From the NCBI GenBank assembly GCA_023205875.1, contig CP060756.1, forward strand, positions 1,054,001 through 1,118,000: a stretch of 64,000 nt of DNA, written 5' to 3'. The stretch comes from Chloropicon primus (taxonomy: Eukaryota > Chlorophyta > Chloropicophyceae > Chloropicales > Chloropicaceae). The position numbers were made by a program, and so were the translations under genes. Shown here one piece after another: positions 5,129 to 29,953 of this stretch (position 1 is its first letter; every line of letters begins with the position of its first letter). Under the pieces are notes generated by a model, which did not search any database, was not told the DNA's origin, and saw only the letters and a list, made by a program, of their open reading frames with translations.

Positions 5129-6403
5129 ATGGAGGGCACGTCGTTCTATGGCGTGATCGTGAAGCCGGGCCGGAAGACCGTGTTCGAGCCCAACAAGGAG
5201 AGGAGCAACAAGTTGCACTTGTCGAATGCGACTTTGGGTTCGTCCGCTCGTGAGGGGGAGAGGGTCCGTCTCAAGTGTCGAAGGGCAGACGAGGGCAGGA
5301 ACGACATCTTCCTGTGCTCCCTGATCGCCGGAAGGAACGAATCCTGCGCTCTGGACGTCATCTTCGACGAGTACGTGGAGATCAGCGTGGACGGGGAGAC
5401 GGAGGTGCACGTCACAGGGTACACGGTGCTCTTCGAGGAGGACTCACTTTCTTACTACAGCGACTCGGACCTGGACGTCGGGGGCACGAGAATGATCAGG
5501 GACCAGCCCGAGTCGGACTCCGAGGAGGACTTGGACGAGGAGGGTTACACGGACTCGGACTCGCCTTACGACTCCGACGAGCTGATCGAGCTGGACTCTG
5601 ACGTGGAGAGTGACGACTACTCGTCGTTGAGCGACGGGGACGAGATGGACGTGGAGACGGCGAGGGCGCTCACGAAGAAGGAGAGCAAGGAGCCTGATTA
5701 CATCATCGAGGAGATCACAGACGAGGGGAAGCCGCAAGCAACCCCGGGGAAGGGTGGTGCGAAGAAGGCCCAAGGCAAGAACAACAAGGAAGGGGACGAG
5801 AAGGCCACCAAGAGGAAGGGCAACAAGAGGACCGCGTCATCCCAATCCACCCAGGAGTCCCCGCCCAAAAAGGTCAAGGTGAGGGAGGACAGGGGGAAGA
5901 AGAAGGAGGACGCGAGCCAGAAACAGTCCGAAGCCGGGCCCTCCAGCAGCAGCCAAAAGGGAGGAGGGGCCGGCACGAGTCAGCAGCCTGCCAAGGGAAA
6001 GGCGGCTGGGAAGGCGAACTCCAAGGCCAAGGAATCCCCTGCGTCATCATCGAACGGCGCACAAATCCAGCGGTTTCCAAGCGGTCTGGAGATCATCAAG
6101 ACTGCGATGGGAAAGGCGGACGGCAAGCTGGCCACGAACGGCAAGAGGGTGTTCTGCAGATACGTTGGCCGGCTCAAGAAGACCGGCCAAATCTTCGACA
6201 AGTCGAAGAACAAGCCCTTCTCCTTCAGGCTTGGTGTGGGCGAGGTGATCCAAGGCTGGGACATTGGCATAAAGGGGATGAGGGTCGGCGACAAGAGGAG
6301 GATCACGGTGCCTCCAAAGCTCGGCTACGGGGACAGGAGGCAGGGACCCATCCCCAAGAATTCGACTCTCGTGTTCGACGTCGAATTGGTGGACGTGCGC
6401 TAG
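5129..6403 (+). CDS. Nucleolar FKBP-type peptidyl-prolyl isomerase (Fpr3/Fpr4/FKBP53-like histone chaperone)
   Basis: The product has 424 residues, starting at the ATG of MEGTSFYGVIVKPG. The N-terminal ~110 residues form a nucleoplasmin-like domain, including FLCSLIAGRNESCALDVIF. A long acidic stretch follows (YYSDSDLDVGG to DGDEMDVE, about 115-180), then a Lys/Ser-rich disordered linker. The C-terminal FKBP domain (about 315-424) has the active-site pattern GQIFDKSKNKPFSFRLGVGE, VIQGWDIGIKGMRVGDKR and PPKLGYGDR. Proteins of this layout sit in the nucleolus, bind histones through the acidic/nucleoplasmin part and isomerise prolines. Plant FKBP43/FKBP53 and yeast Fpr3/Fpr4 have the same layout. 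The gene is complete. Confidence 0.95.
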   Translation: MEGTSFYGVIVKPGRKTVFEPNKERSNKLHLSNATLGSSAREGERVRLKCRRADEGRNDIFLCSLIAGRNESCALDVIFDEYVEISVDGETEVHVTGYTVLFEEDSLSYYSDSDLDVGGTRMIRDQPESDSEEDLDEEGYTDSDSPYDSDELIELDSDVESDDYSSLSDGDEMDVETARALTKKESKEPDYIIEEITDEGKPQATPGKGGAKKAQGKNNKEGDEKATKRKGNKRTASSQSTQESPPKKVKVREDRGKKKEDASQKQSEAGPSSSSQKGGGAGTSQQPAKGKAAGKANSKAKESPASSSNGAQIQRFPSGLEIIKTAMGKADGKLATNGKRVFCRYVGRLKKTGQIFDKSKNKPFSFRLGVGEVIQGWDIGIKGMRVGDKRRITVPPKLGYGDRRQGPIPKNSTLVFDVELVDVR

Positions 6404-6689
6404 ATTTGCTGGCGCAGGCTTCGAGTGTGAGGATTTTGGTCACGGAGCTCCTCGGTTGGGGTGTCGCGTCGTCGTCGTTGCTCAAGGTCCGACCTCCTTG
6501 TCACGACGTCAACTGATATAATATATATTTAATCCATCGACGTGTTCTTGCTGGCATGGACAAAGGGGACTGAGGGGCAGGAGGAGGGATGGGTGGAACG
6601 GAACGTTCATTCGAAAACAGTGCGAATGGAATGGATTACAAGCTGCTCTTCGCAAGCAGGGAGAGACCTAACCGCCGCGTTTGAAGGGC

Positions 6690-7298
6690 CTACTTTCTGC
6701 CGATGCTCAAGAAAATTTCAAGGATCGCTGCAAGGAGAGAGACGGAGACACACGGAGACAGAGAGAGAGAGAGATGTCAGGGCACTGCGAGCTCGAGTCG
6801 CTTGCTTCTGGAAGCCAGGCCGGAATGAAAGGACACTTACACGAACCCAGGACCACGAAGAGGAAGAAGGCCAGGACGACTGGACCGACCGTGAAAGGAT
6901 ACTTCTTGCTCTCCTTGTTTCCGCCCTTCTTGTTGATTTTGTTGTTGTACTTCGCGCTCTTGGCGGCCGTGTGACGCTTGGAGACGACCTGCCGACGACA
7001 ACGAGTGTAGGGGCAGAGAACGCAAACGAAACGAAAGTTGGGAAGGTCAGGCACGCCCCCCAAAACGAGAAACCCCACGAGGCCACGGCCTCCCACACCC
7101 GCGCCCCCTCCGCGCCTCCCGCGGGCGTCTTCCTCCTCGAAGGGGCCTCCCCTCGGGGCGCGGGGCTGGACACGGGTGGCAGCGAAACAAAAGTCTCCGC
7201 CAAAATAAGCGAAGCCGCCCCCTCAACTCAACCCCCGAGACCCGCAACGCGAAGAGGGAAGCCCTCGCGTTCCCCCCTCGTGCTCATTCCCTTACCAT
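6690..7298 (-). CDS. RAMP4/SERP1 stress-associated ER membrane protein, three exons
   Basis: I assembled this from exons 7298-7296 (only the ATG), 6988-6841 and 6727-6690. The introns begin GTAAGG and GTAAGT and end CAG, giving 62 residues. The protein begins MVVSKRHTAAKSAKY, then has KKYPFTVGPVVLAFFLFVVLG and ends SSILEIFLSIGRK. It aligns end to end with RAMP4/SERP1 (family length 60-68), including the YPVGP-x-LL-x-FxFVVxGS motif that starts the tail anchor. RAMP4 binds the Sec61 translocon and the ribosome in the ER membrane and is linked to stress tolerance and N-glycosylation of nascent membrane proteins. The 5' intron directly follows the start codon. The spliced frame is inferred from homology. 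Confidence 0.88.
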
Positions 7299-7305
7299 GA
7301 TTGTG

Positions 7306-7331
7306 CTCTCTCTCTCTCTCTCTCTCTCTCT
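7306..7331. repeat. (CT)n microsatellite
   Basis: About 13 CT dinucleotides directly upstream of the RAMP4 start codon. Confidence 0.9.
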
Positions 7332-7602
7332 TCGTGCTGCAACGCAACCGACGCCGACGAGTGTCCTCCGCTGTGGGCGATTTTCCACAGCAGAGGCCAA
7401 CGTCGTGCTCGAGGGAGGTCTGTCTCGGAAAATCTGGAACTCGATGGAGGAGGCCGAGACCAAATGCTGTTGTTGTTGCACTCGGGTCCCCAAGGCTTCC
7501 AGGAGGGAGGGACTGCTCCCTAGCACCTGCATCCTCATCACGTTCCCCTCCCTCGTTGCAGTGGATTGCTGGAAGCTCGAAGTATCGATATCTATTTATT
7601 TA

Positions 7603-7605
<3 letters not shown>

Positions 7606-7638
<33 letters not shown>
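7606..7638. repeat. (GA)n microsatellite
   Basis: About 16 uninterrupted GA dinucleotides, followed by three TTTCG-type pentamers. Confidence 0.9.
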
Positions 7639-7640
<2 letters not shown>

Positions 7641-7754
7641 TTTCGTTTCGTTTCGTTTATAGGAGGATTCATTTTTTTTGGAGAGGGGTCGCCCCGTCGC
7701 CCTCTTGCCTCGGCCTCGAGACCACCTGTGCCGTGCTCGACGACTCTTTGCTTT

Positions 7755-8818
7755 TCAGCTGGCGATGTAATCATCGAGGGAGACGTTGTTGACGCTGAAC
7801 TTGCCCTCCTCGGAGCGCATGACGTGCTGCCACTCCTCCCTGTTGTCCCAAGCCCTGTCCCAGTGCATGAGGTGGACGTCGAAGTCGAGACCGGACTCCA
7901 GGGCCTTGGGCCAGAGGTCCGTCTTCCGCTCGGCCGGGCGCGTCTTCTCCAGCTCCACCCTAAGGAGCTTGGAGCCGCCCACGGTCTCGAGCTCCCACAC
8001 GAAGTCGACGAGACCGGACGACCTCACCGGGCCGTAGATCTTTCCCTCTATCAGCTCCCTCCCGTTCTTCCTGCAGTACGCCCGAAGCCTCCCCCCCTTC
8101 ACTTCTATCTCCAACGTCTTGCTGGTGGTGGTCTTAGGCACCTCCACCGTGATCTCGACGTACTCGTTCGTCTGGTTCCAAGAGTAGTCGGTCTCCTTCC
8201 CTCCGCTCTTCTCCGGAATGCTCGTCGTCCTGTGGTCGACCTCCACCCAGGGCGACTTGCCTCCCTGGTTCATCGCCCGCACTCGAAACTGTTTCGTTTC
8301 GGGAGCCAAGCAACAAAGGAAGACGAAAACGAGGGAGGGAGTCAGGCAAAAAGAAACGAGGAGGAGGAAACGGGAGTCTTGCTCGGGAATCCTTCCCTCA
8401 GCGGAGGAGACCAGCGCCTCCCGTGCTCTGCGTCTACCTTGAGTCGGTGATTGGCTGGGAGCTGCCCAATCGTGTAAGTCTTGTCCTTCCCCCAGAAGGA
8501 TCTCAAAAAGTCCCGCCCCAGCTTCTGTTTCACCCTCTCGTCCGTCGTGTCCGTCTGCACCTCGTACATGTCCTCGTTCCACACGCTCGACCTGCCGCAC
8601 GTCCAGTCCAACCTTATCTCGTTGTGCCGCGACGAGCACCGCACCTTCGGGGTCCGAGGCACCTGCCCGAGGAAGATGCTCAGCAGGGGCTTGAGGGGTT
8701 TGGCCCACCTCGGGAGCTCCTTCGCGTCCGACTTCACCAACACAACCGCTGCGGTGATCCAACCCAATACCAGGGTCAACGCCGCCCCTGCGAACACGAT
8801 AAAATCCTCCGGCGACAT
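7755..8818 (-). CDS. Single-pass membrane protein with fibronectin III and CS (p23/NudC-like) domains, two exons
   Basis: Exon 1 is 8818-8438 and exon 2 is 8288-7755, with a GTAGAC...CAG intron of 149 nt, giving 304 residues. Residues 5-27 (FIVFAGAALTLVLGWITAAV) are a membrane anchor. A fibronectin type III domain follows, split by the intron: IRLDWTC, then YTIGQLPANH and FRVRAMNQGGKSPWVEV. Residues about 160-250 resemble a CS/p23 domain of NudC type (YSWNQTNEYVEITVEVP at its start, a WELE strand and LLRVELEKT near its end). CS domains usually bind HSP90 or other chaperone clients. The job of a membrane-tethered FN3-CS protein is not known to me. The splice junction restores the FN3 strand and is therefore well supported. 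Confidence 0.75.
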
Positions 8819-27462: not shown

Positions 27463-28033
27463 AGCAAAACGCACCAACACAACACAACACAACAAACAGC
27501 GTTGCCCTCGTCGGTGTCGTTCTCTTCAGGCTCCCTCGCCTTTTGCTTTTTTCGGGGTTCAGAATGAGTGTTCTAATTTGTACACCTTTTGTCTCGCTTT
27601 CTGTCGTTGGAATATAAAAAAAAATCTAAAGAGTAGGTTTTCCCTTGGTGACCTGTTGAGCGGTGGAGAGCGCGTGCTGGGCTGGCAATCCAGCGGTGCA
27701 GAGCAGACCTCCCCTTTTGGAGATCCACGAGAGAGAAAAAATTGAGGACGACGACAGAAGTGGCGGGAAAACGGACGGACAAGAAGATCAAAAAGGTTTT
27801 GTGGCCGGGACGACGATAACGTTGACGGGAGAGAGAGAGAGAGTGGTTACCTGACCTGACCTTGGAAGCACCGAGCGGACGACACTTGCTTGTCTTGCTT
27901 GACGACGTGCGACACGTGTGCGCGACCGTTACGACGAACTGTTGTGGAACATCCCGCCCTATCCACGCGACGAGGACGAGGACGAGGACGAAGCGCGAGA
28001 AAGCAGTTTTTTTTCTTTGAGAGGACGACGACG
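27463..28033. promoter_or_regulatory. Divergent region between Exo84 and nucleotidase-glycosyltransferase genes
   Basis: It contains a TATA-like AATATAAAAA tract (27611-27624), a tRNA-like hairpin-rich segment (27647-27717, see findings), a (GA)n tract (27830-27842) and a GAGGAC repeat (27967-27992). No protein gene is supported. Confidence 0.45.
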
Positions 28034-29701
28034 ATGGCGCCGAACTTGCCGAGCAACCCCAAGGGATTGTCCTCGACGACCCCTGACGGCCTTGTGGCGC
28101 CCCCCGCTGCCAAGGTGCAGAAGACGGAGGGGTTCTCCGTGATGGCGGAGGCCAAGCCCGAGCACTACCACGCCGGGAACAAGCTGACGATCCTGGTGGA
28201 CATGGACAACACCCTGTGTGACTGGGAGGGCGCGTTCGAGGCGTGCATGAAGGCCAAGTTCCCCGAGGTCGCCCTGGTGCCCGCGGAGGGGCGCCTGAAC
28301 TGGGACATTTCCAAGGACTACCCCGCGGCCGCGGCGGACAAGGTCAAGGCCGTGAGCGGGACCCCCGGGTTCTTCTCCGAGATGAAGGCCGTGGAGGGCG
28401 GCGTCGAGGCCGTCAAGGCCATGGCCGCCGCTGGCCACAACGTCCTCCTCGTGACGGCCCCCGACCCGAACTTCTACACCCAGTGCTCCCAGGAGAAGTA
28501 CGAGTGGGTGGAGAAGAACCTCGGCGCGGAGTGGAAGGCCAAGGTCGTCCTGACCAGGGATAAGACCACCGTCAGGGGGGACTTCCTGATCGACGACAAG
28601 CCGCACTGCGACGTCGGGGCCCTGGAGCCCGAGTGGGCCCATGTGGTGTTCGACCAGACCTACAACAGGCAGAAGGGCGGCAAGAGGCTCAGCTCGTGGG
28701 CCGCCTGGAAGGACGTCCTCGGCGTGAAGGCCGAGCTGGACTGCGCCGTGTCCAGGAACCCCAGGGCCAGCCAGGAGAACCTGTACCCCAACGGGATCAA
28801 CTTCAGCTGCGTGTTCCCCTCCTTCAACCAGGAGAGCATCGTGAGGAAGACGCTCGCCGGGCTGGTGAAGCAGAAGATCAAGAGCAACTTCAAGTTCGAG
28901 GTGGTCATCGTGGACAACAACTCCACGGACGACATCGACGCCATCTACAAGAAGTACCGCACCAAGCTCGACCTCACCCTCGTGCAGAGGAGGAAGCTCG
29001 CCAACACCTTCTCCGTGCCCAGCGCGAGGAACATGGGGATCCAGCAGGCGAAGTACGACTACATCATCGGCATGGACAGCGACGTCATCCTGAACGAGAA
29101 CTTCCTGGAGAACATGTACCAGTTCCTCTCCAGCAAGCCGAACAACGTGCCCTACATGGTCACCGCGGAGAGGATCTTCGTGTGCACCGAGGGCTGCTCC
29201 GATGACAAGCTCCTGGAGGACTACACCGAGACGGAGAGGTACCCAAGGATCCTGAGCAAAGCGAACTACTTCAAGCCCAGGGACAACAGGTTCAGCCACG
29301 GAAACATCTTGGAGAACGTGGAGAAGGGCTGGCAGCCGTGGGCCTACTTTTACGGCATGCACACCGCCTTCCCCAAGAAGATCTGGGAGAAGATCGGCGG
29401 GTACAACGAGGTGTACGACGGCTGGTGGGGATACGACGACATCCACTTCGCCTGGGAGATGACCGTGAAGGGAGGCTGCCTCCCGACCATCCTTGGGGGA
29501 ACCGAGGTGTTCCACCAGGAGCCTTACGGAAGCCAGTGGGTCCCACTCGGAGGAGTCGTGGACAAGCTCGGAACGAGCAACCCGAGGCTGAACAAGAAGG
29601 ACAACCCCAACTGGCAGAGGATCTGCGACACTATTGAGGGGTACGCCGACTGGAAGACGGATTACTACCAGAAGCTGGCGGGAGATATCGTGACTCTCTA
29701 A
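28034..29701 (+). CDS. Fusion of 5'(3')-deoxyribonucleotidase (HAD) and GT-A family 2-type glycosyltransferase
   Basis: The product has 555 residues. Residues 48-235 match cytosolic/mitochondrial 5'(3')-deoxyribonucleotidase almost throughout: LVDMDNTLCDWEGAF (HAD nucleophile aspartates), FFSEMKAVEGGVEAVKAM, EKYEWVEKNLG, LTRDKTTVRGDFLIDDKPH. Residues about 255-545 are a GT-A glycosyltransferase. It has a GT2 start (SCVFPSFNQESIVRKTLAGL, VVIVDNNSTDD), a DxD metal motif in GMDSDVILN (about 350) and a GWWGYDDIHFAWEM motif like the galactosyltransferase-7C W-G-x-D-D signature. No signal peptide or membrane span is seen, so a cytosolic enzyme is implied. One domain could remove the nucleotide by-product of the other; this is inference. 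All key acidic residues are present. Confidence 0.9.
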   Translation: MAPNLPSNPKGLSSTTPDGLVAPPAAKVQKTEGFSVMAEAKPEHYHAGNKLTILVDMDNTLCDWEGAFEACMKAKFPEVALVPAEGRLNWDISKDYPAAAADKVKAVSGTPGFFSEMKAVEGGVEAVKAMAAAGHNVLLVTAPDPNFYTQCSQEKYEWVEKNLGAEWKAKVVLTRDKTTVRGDFLIDDKPHCDVGALEPEWAHVVFDQTYNRQKGGKRLSSWAAWKDVLGVKAELDCAVSRNPRASQENLYPNGINFSCVFPSFNQESIVRKTLAGLVKQKIKSNFKFEVVIVDNNSTDDIDAIYKKYRTKLDLTLVQRRKLANTFSVPSARNMGIQQAKYDYIIGMDSDVILNENFLENMYQFLSSKPNNVPYMVTAERIFVCTEGCSDDKLLEDYTETERYPRILSKANYFKPRDNRFSHGNILENVEKGWQPWAYFYGMHTAFPKKIWEKIGGYNEVYDGWWGYDDIHFAWEMTVKGGCLPTILGGTEVFHQEPYGSQWVPLGGVVDKLGTSNPRLNKKDNPNWQRICDTIEGYADWKTDYYQKLAGDIVTL

Positions 29702-29953
29702 GGAGAGAGCCCAAGCGCGAAGCTCGTGGAGCCTGATATCAAGTTCATTTTTGTTTATTTTAGCTTGCCAGAGAAAAAGCAGAAATAAAGGAGAGTCGTG
29801 GTGTAACCGTCACCCGTGACTTTTTTACGTTTTATGTAACCAAAAAGATTTACTACAACTTTCATTGCTTTTTTTCTTCTTCTCCCCCCCTCTTATTGAG
29901 AAAGAATATCAAGAAGAGTGAGTGCGGGCCAAGGCCATCTCGCTGCACGTTGT

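Follow-up and report, generated by a model that had tools for sequence, protein, structure and literature searches.

In a 64,000-nucleotide stretch of the genome of the green alga Chloropicon primus (contig CP060756.1, positions 1,054,001 to 1,118,000; hereafter the window), a single gene joins an NT5C-type HAD phosphatase to a GT-A glycosyltransferase of family 2 (GT2). The fusion is real. As to what it does, we propose, tentatively and with somewhat less than even confidence, a two-step enzyme in which the GT2 domain uses a UDP-sugar, most likely UDP-galactofuranose (UDP-Galf), as its hexose donor, and the HAD domain dephosphorylates the same metabolite. Gene fusion links this clade of glycosyltransferases to two partners, the phosphatase and UDP-galactopyranose mutase (UGM), and these links suggest that small marine green algae make a galactofuranose product, probably a soluble one.

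The fused gene and its relatives

The gene reads from ATG to TAA as one uninterrupted frame of 555 amino acids with no internal stops (Table 1), which confirms the intron-less frame given in a preliminary description of this DNA. Both domains had also been named correctly there: Pfam places NT5C (PF06941) at residues 53-233 (6e-23, 82.1 bits, gathering cut-off 24.8) and Glycos_transf_2 (PF00535) at residues 258-375 (6.5e-21, 75.4 bits, cut-off 23.3), solved relatives agree for both, and the motifs it had cited, DMDNT, DSD and GWWGYDD, can all be located in the frame. By sequence, the closest solved relatives of the phosphatase part are the human 5'(3')-deoxyribonucleotidases (4.2e-33); the nearest solved transferase is the E. 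coli K4 chondroitin polymerase (K4CP, 1.2e-22). Among the transferase matches AvpGT comes second to K4CP.

Among some 5.8 billion proteins searched, 32 relatives were found. Both Pfam domains are present in 14 of them, one of which (P0011) is a fragment of the window's own protein, which leaves 13 other proteins with the pair. The only source that names a species for a GT2 fusion is Chloropicon laureae (P0004, 552 aa), also the best match with a species name; its sources include a transcriptome collection (mmetsp), so the fusion is visible in the transcript data of a close relative. Identity over the full length is 74-86% for P0002-P0007 and 63-64% for P0008-P0010. A chance frame or an assembly join is ruled out by these full-length relatives together with the transcriptome source. 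The C. primus genome that we searched (17.58 Mb, 20 contigs) contains one other NT5C match, on contig C9, where the frame shows no match to a GT, and no close second copy of the GT was found in it.

In a tree of 72 rows, the NT5C domains fused to GT2 form one clade (100/98). With midpoint rooting, and in a sampling that left out eukaryotic standalone NT5C and dropped four rows (the C9 gene, P0012, P0043 and P0080), three Symbiodinium-type rows are sister to that clade (99/93), and the remaining nine GT4-linked rows are placed elsewhere. In the GT4 (GT-B) joins, the phosphatase that elsewhere goes with GT2 is paired with a transferase of unrelated fold. Such joins make up 9 of the 32 relatives (P0022-P0025, P0027, P0029-P0032; the organism name of P0022 begins "Symbi"), and in them the phosphatase lies behind the transferase. 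An inositol-phosphate chemistry like that of MshA was considered for the GT4 fusions and rejected: MshA is just one among many weak GT4 matches.

The AlphaFold model of the fusion has a mean pLDDT of 84.9 and a pTM of 0.68. Means over ten-residue blocks are mostly 81-98 in both domains, and confidence falls below 50 at residues 1-27, 232-246, 501-510 and 553-555. The protein is probably soluble and cytosolic, because it has no hydrophobic segment (the top 19-residue Kyte-Doolittle mean in the whole protein is 1.15).

What the phosphatase acts on

The NT5C fold is present with its HAD catalytic residues, which are D41, D43, K165, D175 and D176 in the numbering of human mdN; in motif I of the fusion, D56 is presumably the nucleophile and D58 the acid/base. 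Across 19 rows of GT2-linked NT5C, several of them partial, these catalytic positions are kept wherever the residue is aligned (P0012, whose NT5C is broken, was scored as gaps for motif I). The base pocket is a different matter. The residues that hold the base in human mdN, F49, F75, W76 and W96, are replaced in the fusion, which retains none of F49, F75 and W96. In the GT2-linked rows, F49 has become W or Y (17/17), F75 has become W (17/17), and position 96 is C, N, S, T or A (18/18). In the 44 standalone NT5C rows, on the other hand, F49 and F75 are each F in 43, and position 96 is Y in 30, F in 3 and another residue in 11.

This pattern bears on by-product clearance, in which the nucleotidase would dephosphorylate the nucleotide that the transferase sets free. 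The substrates of NT5C enzymes are monophosphates. The nearest solved transferases (K4CP, AvpGT, TarS and RmlT) use UDP- or TDP-sugars, and thus release diphosphates; the ligands in the titles of the solved entries are UDP-GalNAc, UDP-GlcNAc and TDP-rhamnose, and the donor of AvpGT is UDP-glucose according to an excerpt of PMC11959488. Clearance would then need another enzyme to cut UDP to UMP first, and a separate UDPase could indeed supply UMP. The idea also has in its favor that the domain belongs to a nucleotidase family and keeps its catalytic residues, that two pocket positions are still aromatic, and that NT5C is joined to two transferase folds, GT2 and GT4, as one would expect of a general helper. 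But the pocket positions that would recognize a base are replaced while the catalytic residues are kept, and the related bacterial transferases described below pair with phosphatases of the HAD-IIA or HAD-IIB class. We consider clearance unlikely, and the same three lines of evidence (donors, pocket, bacterial partners) speak against the specific form suggested in the preliminary description, in which the by-product was perhaps CMP or dTMP. Chloropicon does have sialyltransferases, which would release CMP (59 genes, PMC6731263); they are proteins other than the fusion.

The two halves of the protein are also conserved unevenly. The GT part is the more conserved one, at 88-96% identity to P0002-P0007 and 73-74% to P0008-P0010, versus 63-75% and 52% for the NT5C part. 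And in a paralogue line (P0012, P0019, P0042 and P0044, with 9, 1, 1 and 31 member sequences), NT5C is broken, its nucleophile D changed to E and its cap region missing, with GT2 still joined; P0012 keeps every GT motif. Faster divergence and a broken domain beside a preserved transferase would both suit an NT5C that serves mainly as scaffold or regulator, its catalysis being of little weight, and some sucrose-phosphate synthases carry a phosphatase-like domain. A scaffold seems improbable to us, however, given that the Chloropicon-type proteins P0001-P0007, as well as P0008, P0010, P0016-P0018 and P0020, retain HAD motifs I, III and IV.

Partners of the transferase: a mutase and other phosphatases

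In the GT2 domain we find the family profile together with the DxD, WG-x-[ED]-D and HQEP motifs, the last of which we take to provide the second metal ligand. There is one transferase domain in the fusion, not the tandem pair of a polymerase. The mycobacterial GlfT2 is not among the structure and sequence matches listed for the GT domain.

The best indication of the donor comes from the relatives. In five of them, all from metagenome contigs (P0008, P0016, P0017, P0018 and P0020), a UGM part precedes NT5C. P0018 has UGM at residues 22-478 (E-value 2.7e-160 to a solved UGM), then NT5C, then the start of GT2; P0008 starts within UGM and continues through NT5C and the whole of GT2; the other three have the C-terminal UGM motif ahead of NT5C. 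The domain order would then be UGM-NT5C-GT2, pieced together from these proteins, no single one of which has all three domains complete. C. primus itself has UGM as a separate gene (G000:C1:1144207-1145697 (-), 2.1e-191 to a solved UGM), and enzymes that are fused in one lineage but encoded by separate genes elsewhere usually belong to the same pathway. The five fused relatives thus provide the genetic tie to UGM that one looks for in a galactofuranosyltransferase. According to PMC7278926, galactofuranose comes solely from UDP-Galf, the product of UGM, and with this tie a Galf transferase is the likeliest reading of the GT domain.

We can then sketch the two-step enzyme as follows, with the donor, the order of the steps and the HAD substrate (a phosphorylated acceptor or glycoside) all inferred. 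UGM would make UDP-Galf; the GT2 domain would transfer the hexose from a UDP-sugar, most likely this one; the NT5C-derived HAD domain would dephosphorylate either the product of the transferase, a phosphorylated glycoside, or a phosphorylated compound that gives rise to the acceptor. Removal of the phosphate would make the sequence irreversible, and the fusion would hand the intermediate from one domain to the other. Each order has a precedent: a single gene for mannosyl-3-phosphoglycerate synthase and phosphatase for glycosylation first (PMC6240254), and for the reverse order the Campylobacter jejuni capsule, where a GT2 can add GalfNAc only once a HAD phosphatase has done its part (PMC11800379, PMC11800397).

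A further look at the transferase is offered by its bacterial homologues. A search with the GT domain finds proteins that have GT2 alone, at 30-33% identity; two are bacterial by name, and these (P0041 and P0046) are actinobacterial. A genome scan gives 44 loci, of which the six closest (E-value 3e-54 or better) belong to Desulfarculaceae (L007), Okeania (L008 and L012) and Planctomycetota (L009-L011); the next match is at 5e-17. At E-values up to 1e-35, matches occur in 2/386 genomes of the phylum of L012, 3/395 of the phylum of L007, 3/392 of the phylum of L010 and 2/63 of the class of L007, in overlapping genome sets and with the starting genomes included in the counts. New strong matches are G442 (1.3e-119) and G841 (8e-83), and weak ones G139, G636 and G818.

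Several of the close loci place a HAD gene by the transferase. In L007, a HAD-IIA gene (TIGR01459, above cut-off) comes after the transferase, and then genes for a DegT aminotransferase, a sugar transporter and a radical SAM protein. The G442 locus (L057) has the same order of GT, HAD-IIA and DegT, with the transporter and radical SAM recognized by eye and a GMC oxidoreductase upstream. In both Okeania loci, a HAD-IIA gene (TIGR01459, above cut-off) lies ahead of the transferase. The G841 locus (L063) has an 820-aa frame in which GT2 is fused to both a HAD-IIB domain (TIGR01484, 86.4 bits, cut-off 41.8) and a PMM-like region; by family name, HAD-IIB enzymes of this type are sugar-phosphate phosphatases. 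Phmmer with three HAD-IIA proteins matches only L007, L008 and L012 among the 44 loci. No HAD-IIA was found by phmmer in G139 or G636.

A pattern search for HAD motifs in frames of at least 150 aa within 2 kb of the transferase, over 46 loci (G139, G636 and G818 left out), finds one in 5 of the 8 close loci, L012 having less than 2 kb on a side, versus 1 of the 38 distant loci, 11 of which have less than 2 kb on one or both sides. The lone distant motif is spurious, as it lies in the antisense frame of the transferase. The Fisher p-value is 2.3e-4, or 1.4e-3 with the 8 close loci collapsed to 4 lineages, and both values are descriptive, since the coupling hypothesis came post hoc from the same loci. 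The bacterial relatives support a functional tie of the transferase to a phosphatase. Their partner enzymes are HAD-IIA or HAD-IIB, not NT5C. That the transferase clade pairs with three HAD classes suggests that phosphate removal belongs to its chemistry, and that an NT5C fold can take on roles beyond nucleotide metabolism.

Against a two-step galactofuranosyl enzyme stand, besides the aromatic residues left in the pocket, the short flanks of the distant loci and the post hoc origin of the coupling hypothesis, several further observations. K4CP, the closest transferase of solved structure, is a UDP-GalNAc/GlcUA polymerase and no Galf transferase. The phosphatase is dispensable in the P0012 line, and so can be lost with the transferase kept. 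No HAD motif occurs within 2 kb in the three planctomycete loci (L009-L011). Phmmer with the algal UGM, which could miss a distant bacterial UGM, has no match in the 44 bacterial loci nor in L057 and L063, and the UGM tie is confined to algae in the data examined.

The AvpGT match keeps a nucleoside acceptor in view (AvpGT being described as a nucleoside glucosyltransferase in an excerpt of PMC11959488). The nucleotidase could make an acceptor nucleoside from its 5'-phosphate, or strip a glycosylated nucleotide, and if UGM takes part, a galactofuranosyl nucleoside would result; we find this quite unlikely. The full three-enzyme line, with UDP-Galf supplied by UGM, the nucleoside or glycosyl-nucleotide released by the nucleotidase, and the two coupled by an AvpGT-like GT2 into galactofuranosyl nucleosides, we regard as a long shot. 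We know of no galactofuranosyl nucleosides, a class of nucleoside disaccharide, from algae, and made no search for them by name.

Surroundings of the gene and comparison with known systems

Table 1. Features of the fusion gene, in positions of the window.
Feature	Positions	Strand	Basis
Whole fusion gene	28034..29701	+	555 codons plus stop in one frame; relatives match full length
N-terminal extension, residues 1-50	28034..28183	+	residues 1-27 modelled as disordered
NT5C-type HAD phosphatase domain, residues 51-233	28184..28732	+	Pfam NT5C
HAD motif I, DMDNT, residues 56-60	28199..28213	+	sequence, alignment
Base-pocket stretch	28223..28357	+	W64 for F49, W90 for F75, D91 for W76, S108 for W96 (human mdN)
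HAD motifs III and IV, TRDKT (174-178, K177) and LIDDKP (185-190, D187 D188)	28553..28603	+	sequence, alignment
Linker, residues 234-252	28733..28789	+	AlphaFold confidence mostly low
GT2 (GT-A) glycosyltransferase domain, residues 253-555	28790..29698	+	Pfam Glycos_transf_2
DxD metal motif, D348-S349-D350	29075..29083	+	sequence, alignment
GWWGYDD, residues 463-469	29420..29440	+	aligned to WGGEDNEF of K4CP
HQEP, H494-P497	29513..29524	+	HQEP shared with K4CP

The neighbours of the gene have no evident part in sugar metabolism: a Pfam scan of nine frames in the window finds a DHX29-like helicase, an importin-like protein, FtsZ, a cyclic-nucleotide phosphodiesterase, an ion channel, a GOST membrane protein and a TPR protein, with two frames unmatched. 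Across from the fusion gene, the other strand has an open stretch of 616 codons (27959-29809 (-)), probably an effect of GC-rich codon use. Among the bacterial loci, L007:9989-16774 and L057:2059-10481 are a gene run common to two genomes of the Desulfobacterota phylum, and it looks like a small-molecule pathway. L009 has as neighbour a PhnZ-like HD protein (TIGR03276, 177 bits, below the cut-off of 214.6), and L011 has a frame that resembles it by eye.

A viral origin of the fusion was considered and rejected; the matches in viral collections hold standalone NT5C, weak GT2 or standalone UGM. The fusion as query matches one viral contig, L051 (IMG/VR), with a standalone NT5C gene of 230 codons at 8001-8693, which by eye follows Zot-like (5326-6396) and secretin-like (6393-7649) frames, as in filamentous phage. 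Query A2 gives six weak GT2 loci at 21-30% identity. P0008 as query gives two standalone UGM genes of eukaryotic type (L070:5587-7020 and L071:88-1512, IMG/VR; phmmer 2.3e-143 and 1.2e-135 to the algal UGM), among frames that look phage-like by eye and with neither NT5C nor GT2 alongside. Phmmer finds no NT5C in five of the eight loci given by A2 and P0008 (L064, L065, L066, L070 and L071; L067-L069 were left out).

The preliminary description knew of no described enzyme with this pair, and it does seem undescribed: in the open-licence literature we found no paper on an NT5C-glycosyltransferase or UGM-fused pair, which does not prove it unpublished. A term search in the main texts of two Chloropicon genome papers (PMC6731263, PMC12301720) finds no galactofuranose, glycosyltransferase, nucleotidase or mutase terms. 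As far as searched, then, the fusion is undescribed, and it falls within a known kind, that of a glycosyltransferase with a HAD phosphatase.

Each known system shares some parts of it. Human NT5C and NT5M, unlike the fusion, have the pocket residues F49, F75, W76 and W96 intact and no fused transferase. K4CP, whose first transferase domain is 23% identical to the fusion GT, has two transferase domains and no phosphatase. AvpGT, a nucleoside 3'-O-glucosyltransferase, is 14% identical, in a 306-residue chain without a phosphatase domain. The eukaryotic UGM is fused to NT5C-GT2 in the relatives and is a separate gene in C. primus. In C. jejuni, as excerpts of PMC11800379 and PMC11800397 describe it, the HAD protein Cj1435 prepares the acceptor for the GT2 proteins Cj1438/Cj1434, which use UDP-GalfNAc; these are separate proteins, unlike the fusion. 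MgsD and TPS/TPP, like the fusion, have a transferase and a HAD phosphatase in one chain; in MgsD the two act in turn, according to an excerpt of PMC6240254. By profile, the transferase and phosphatase families of MgsD differ from those of the fusion, whose own chemistry is predicted from sequence: no Pfam or NCBIfam model of the MgsD or TPS/TPP families matches up to an E-value of 1, and HAD-IIB appears only in the bacterial L063. The fusion may work like MgsD or TPS/TPP, but it is not a member of those families.
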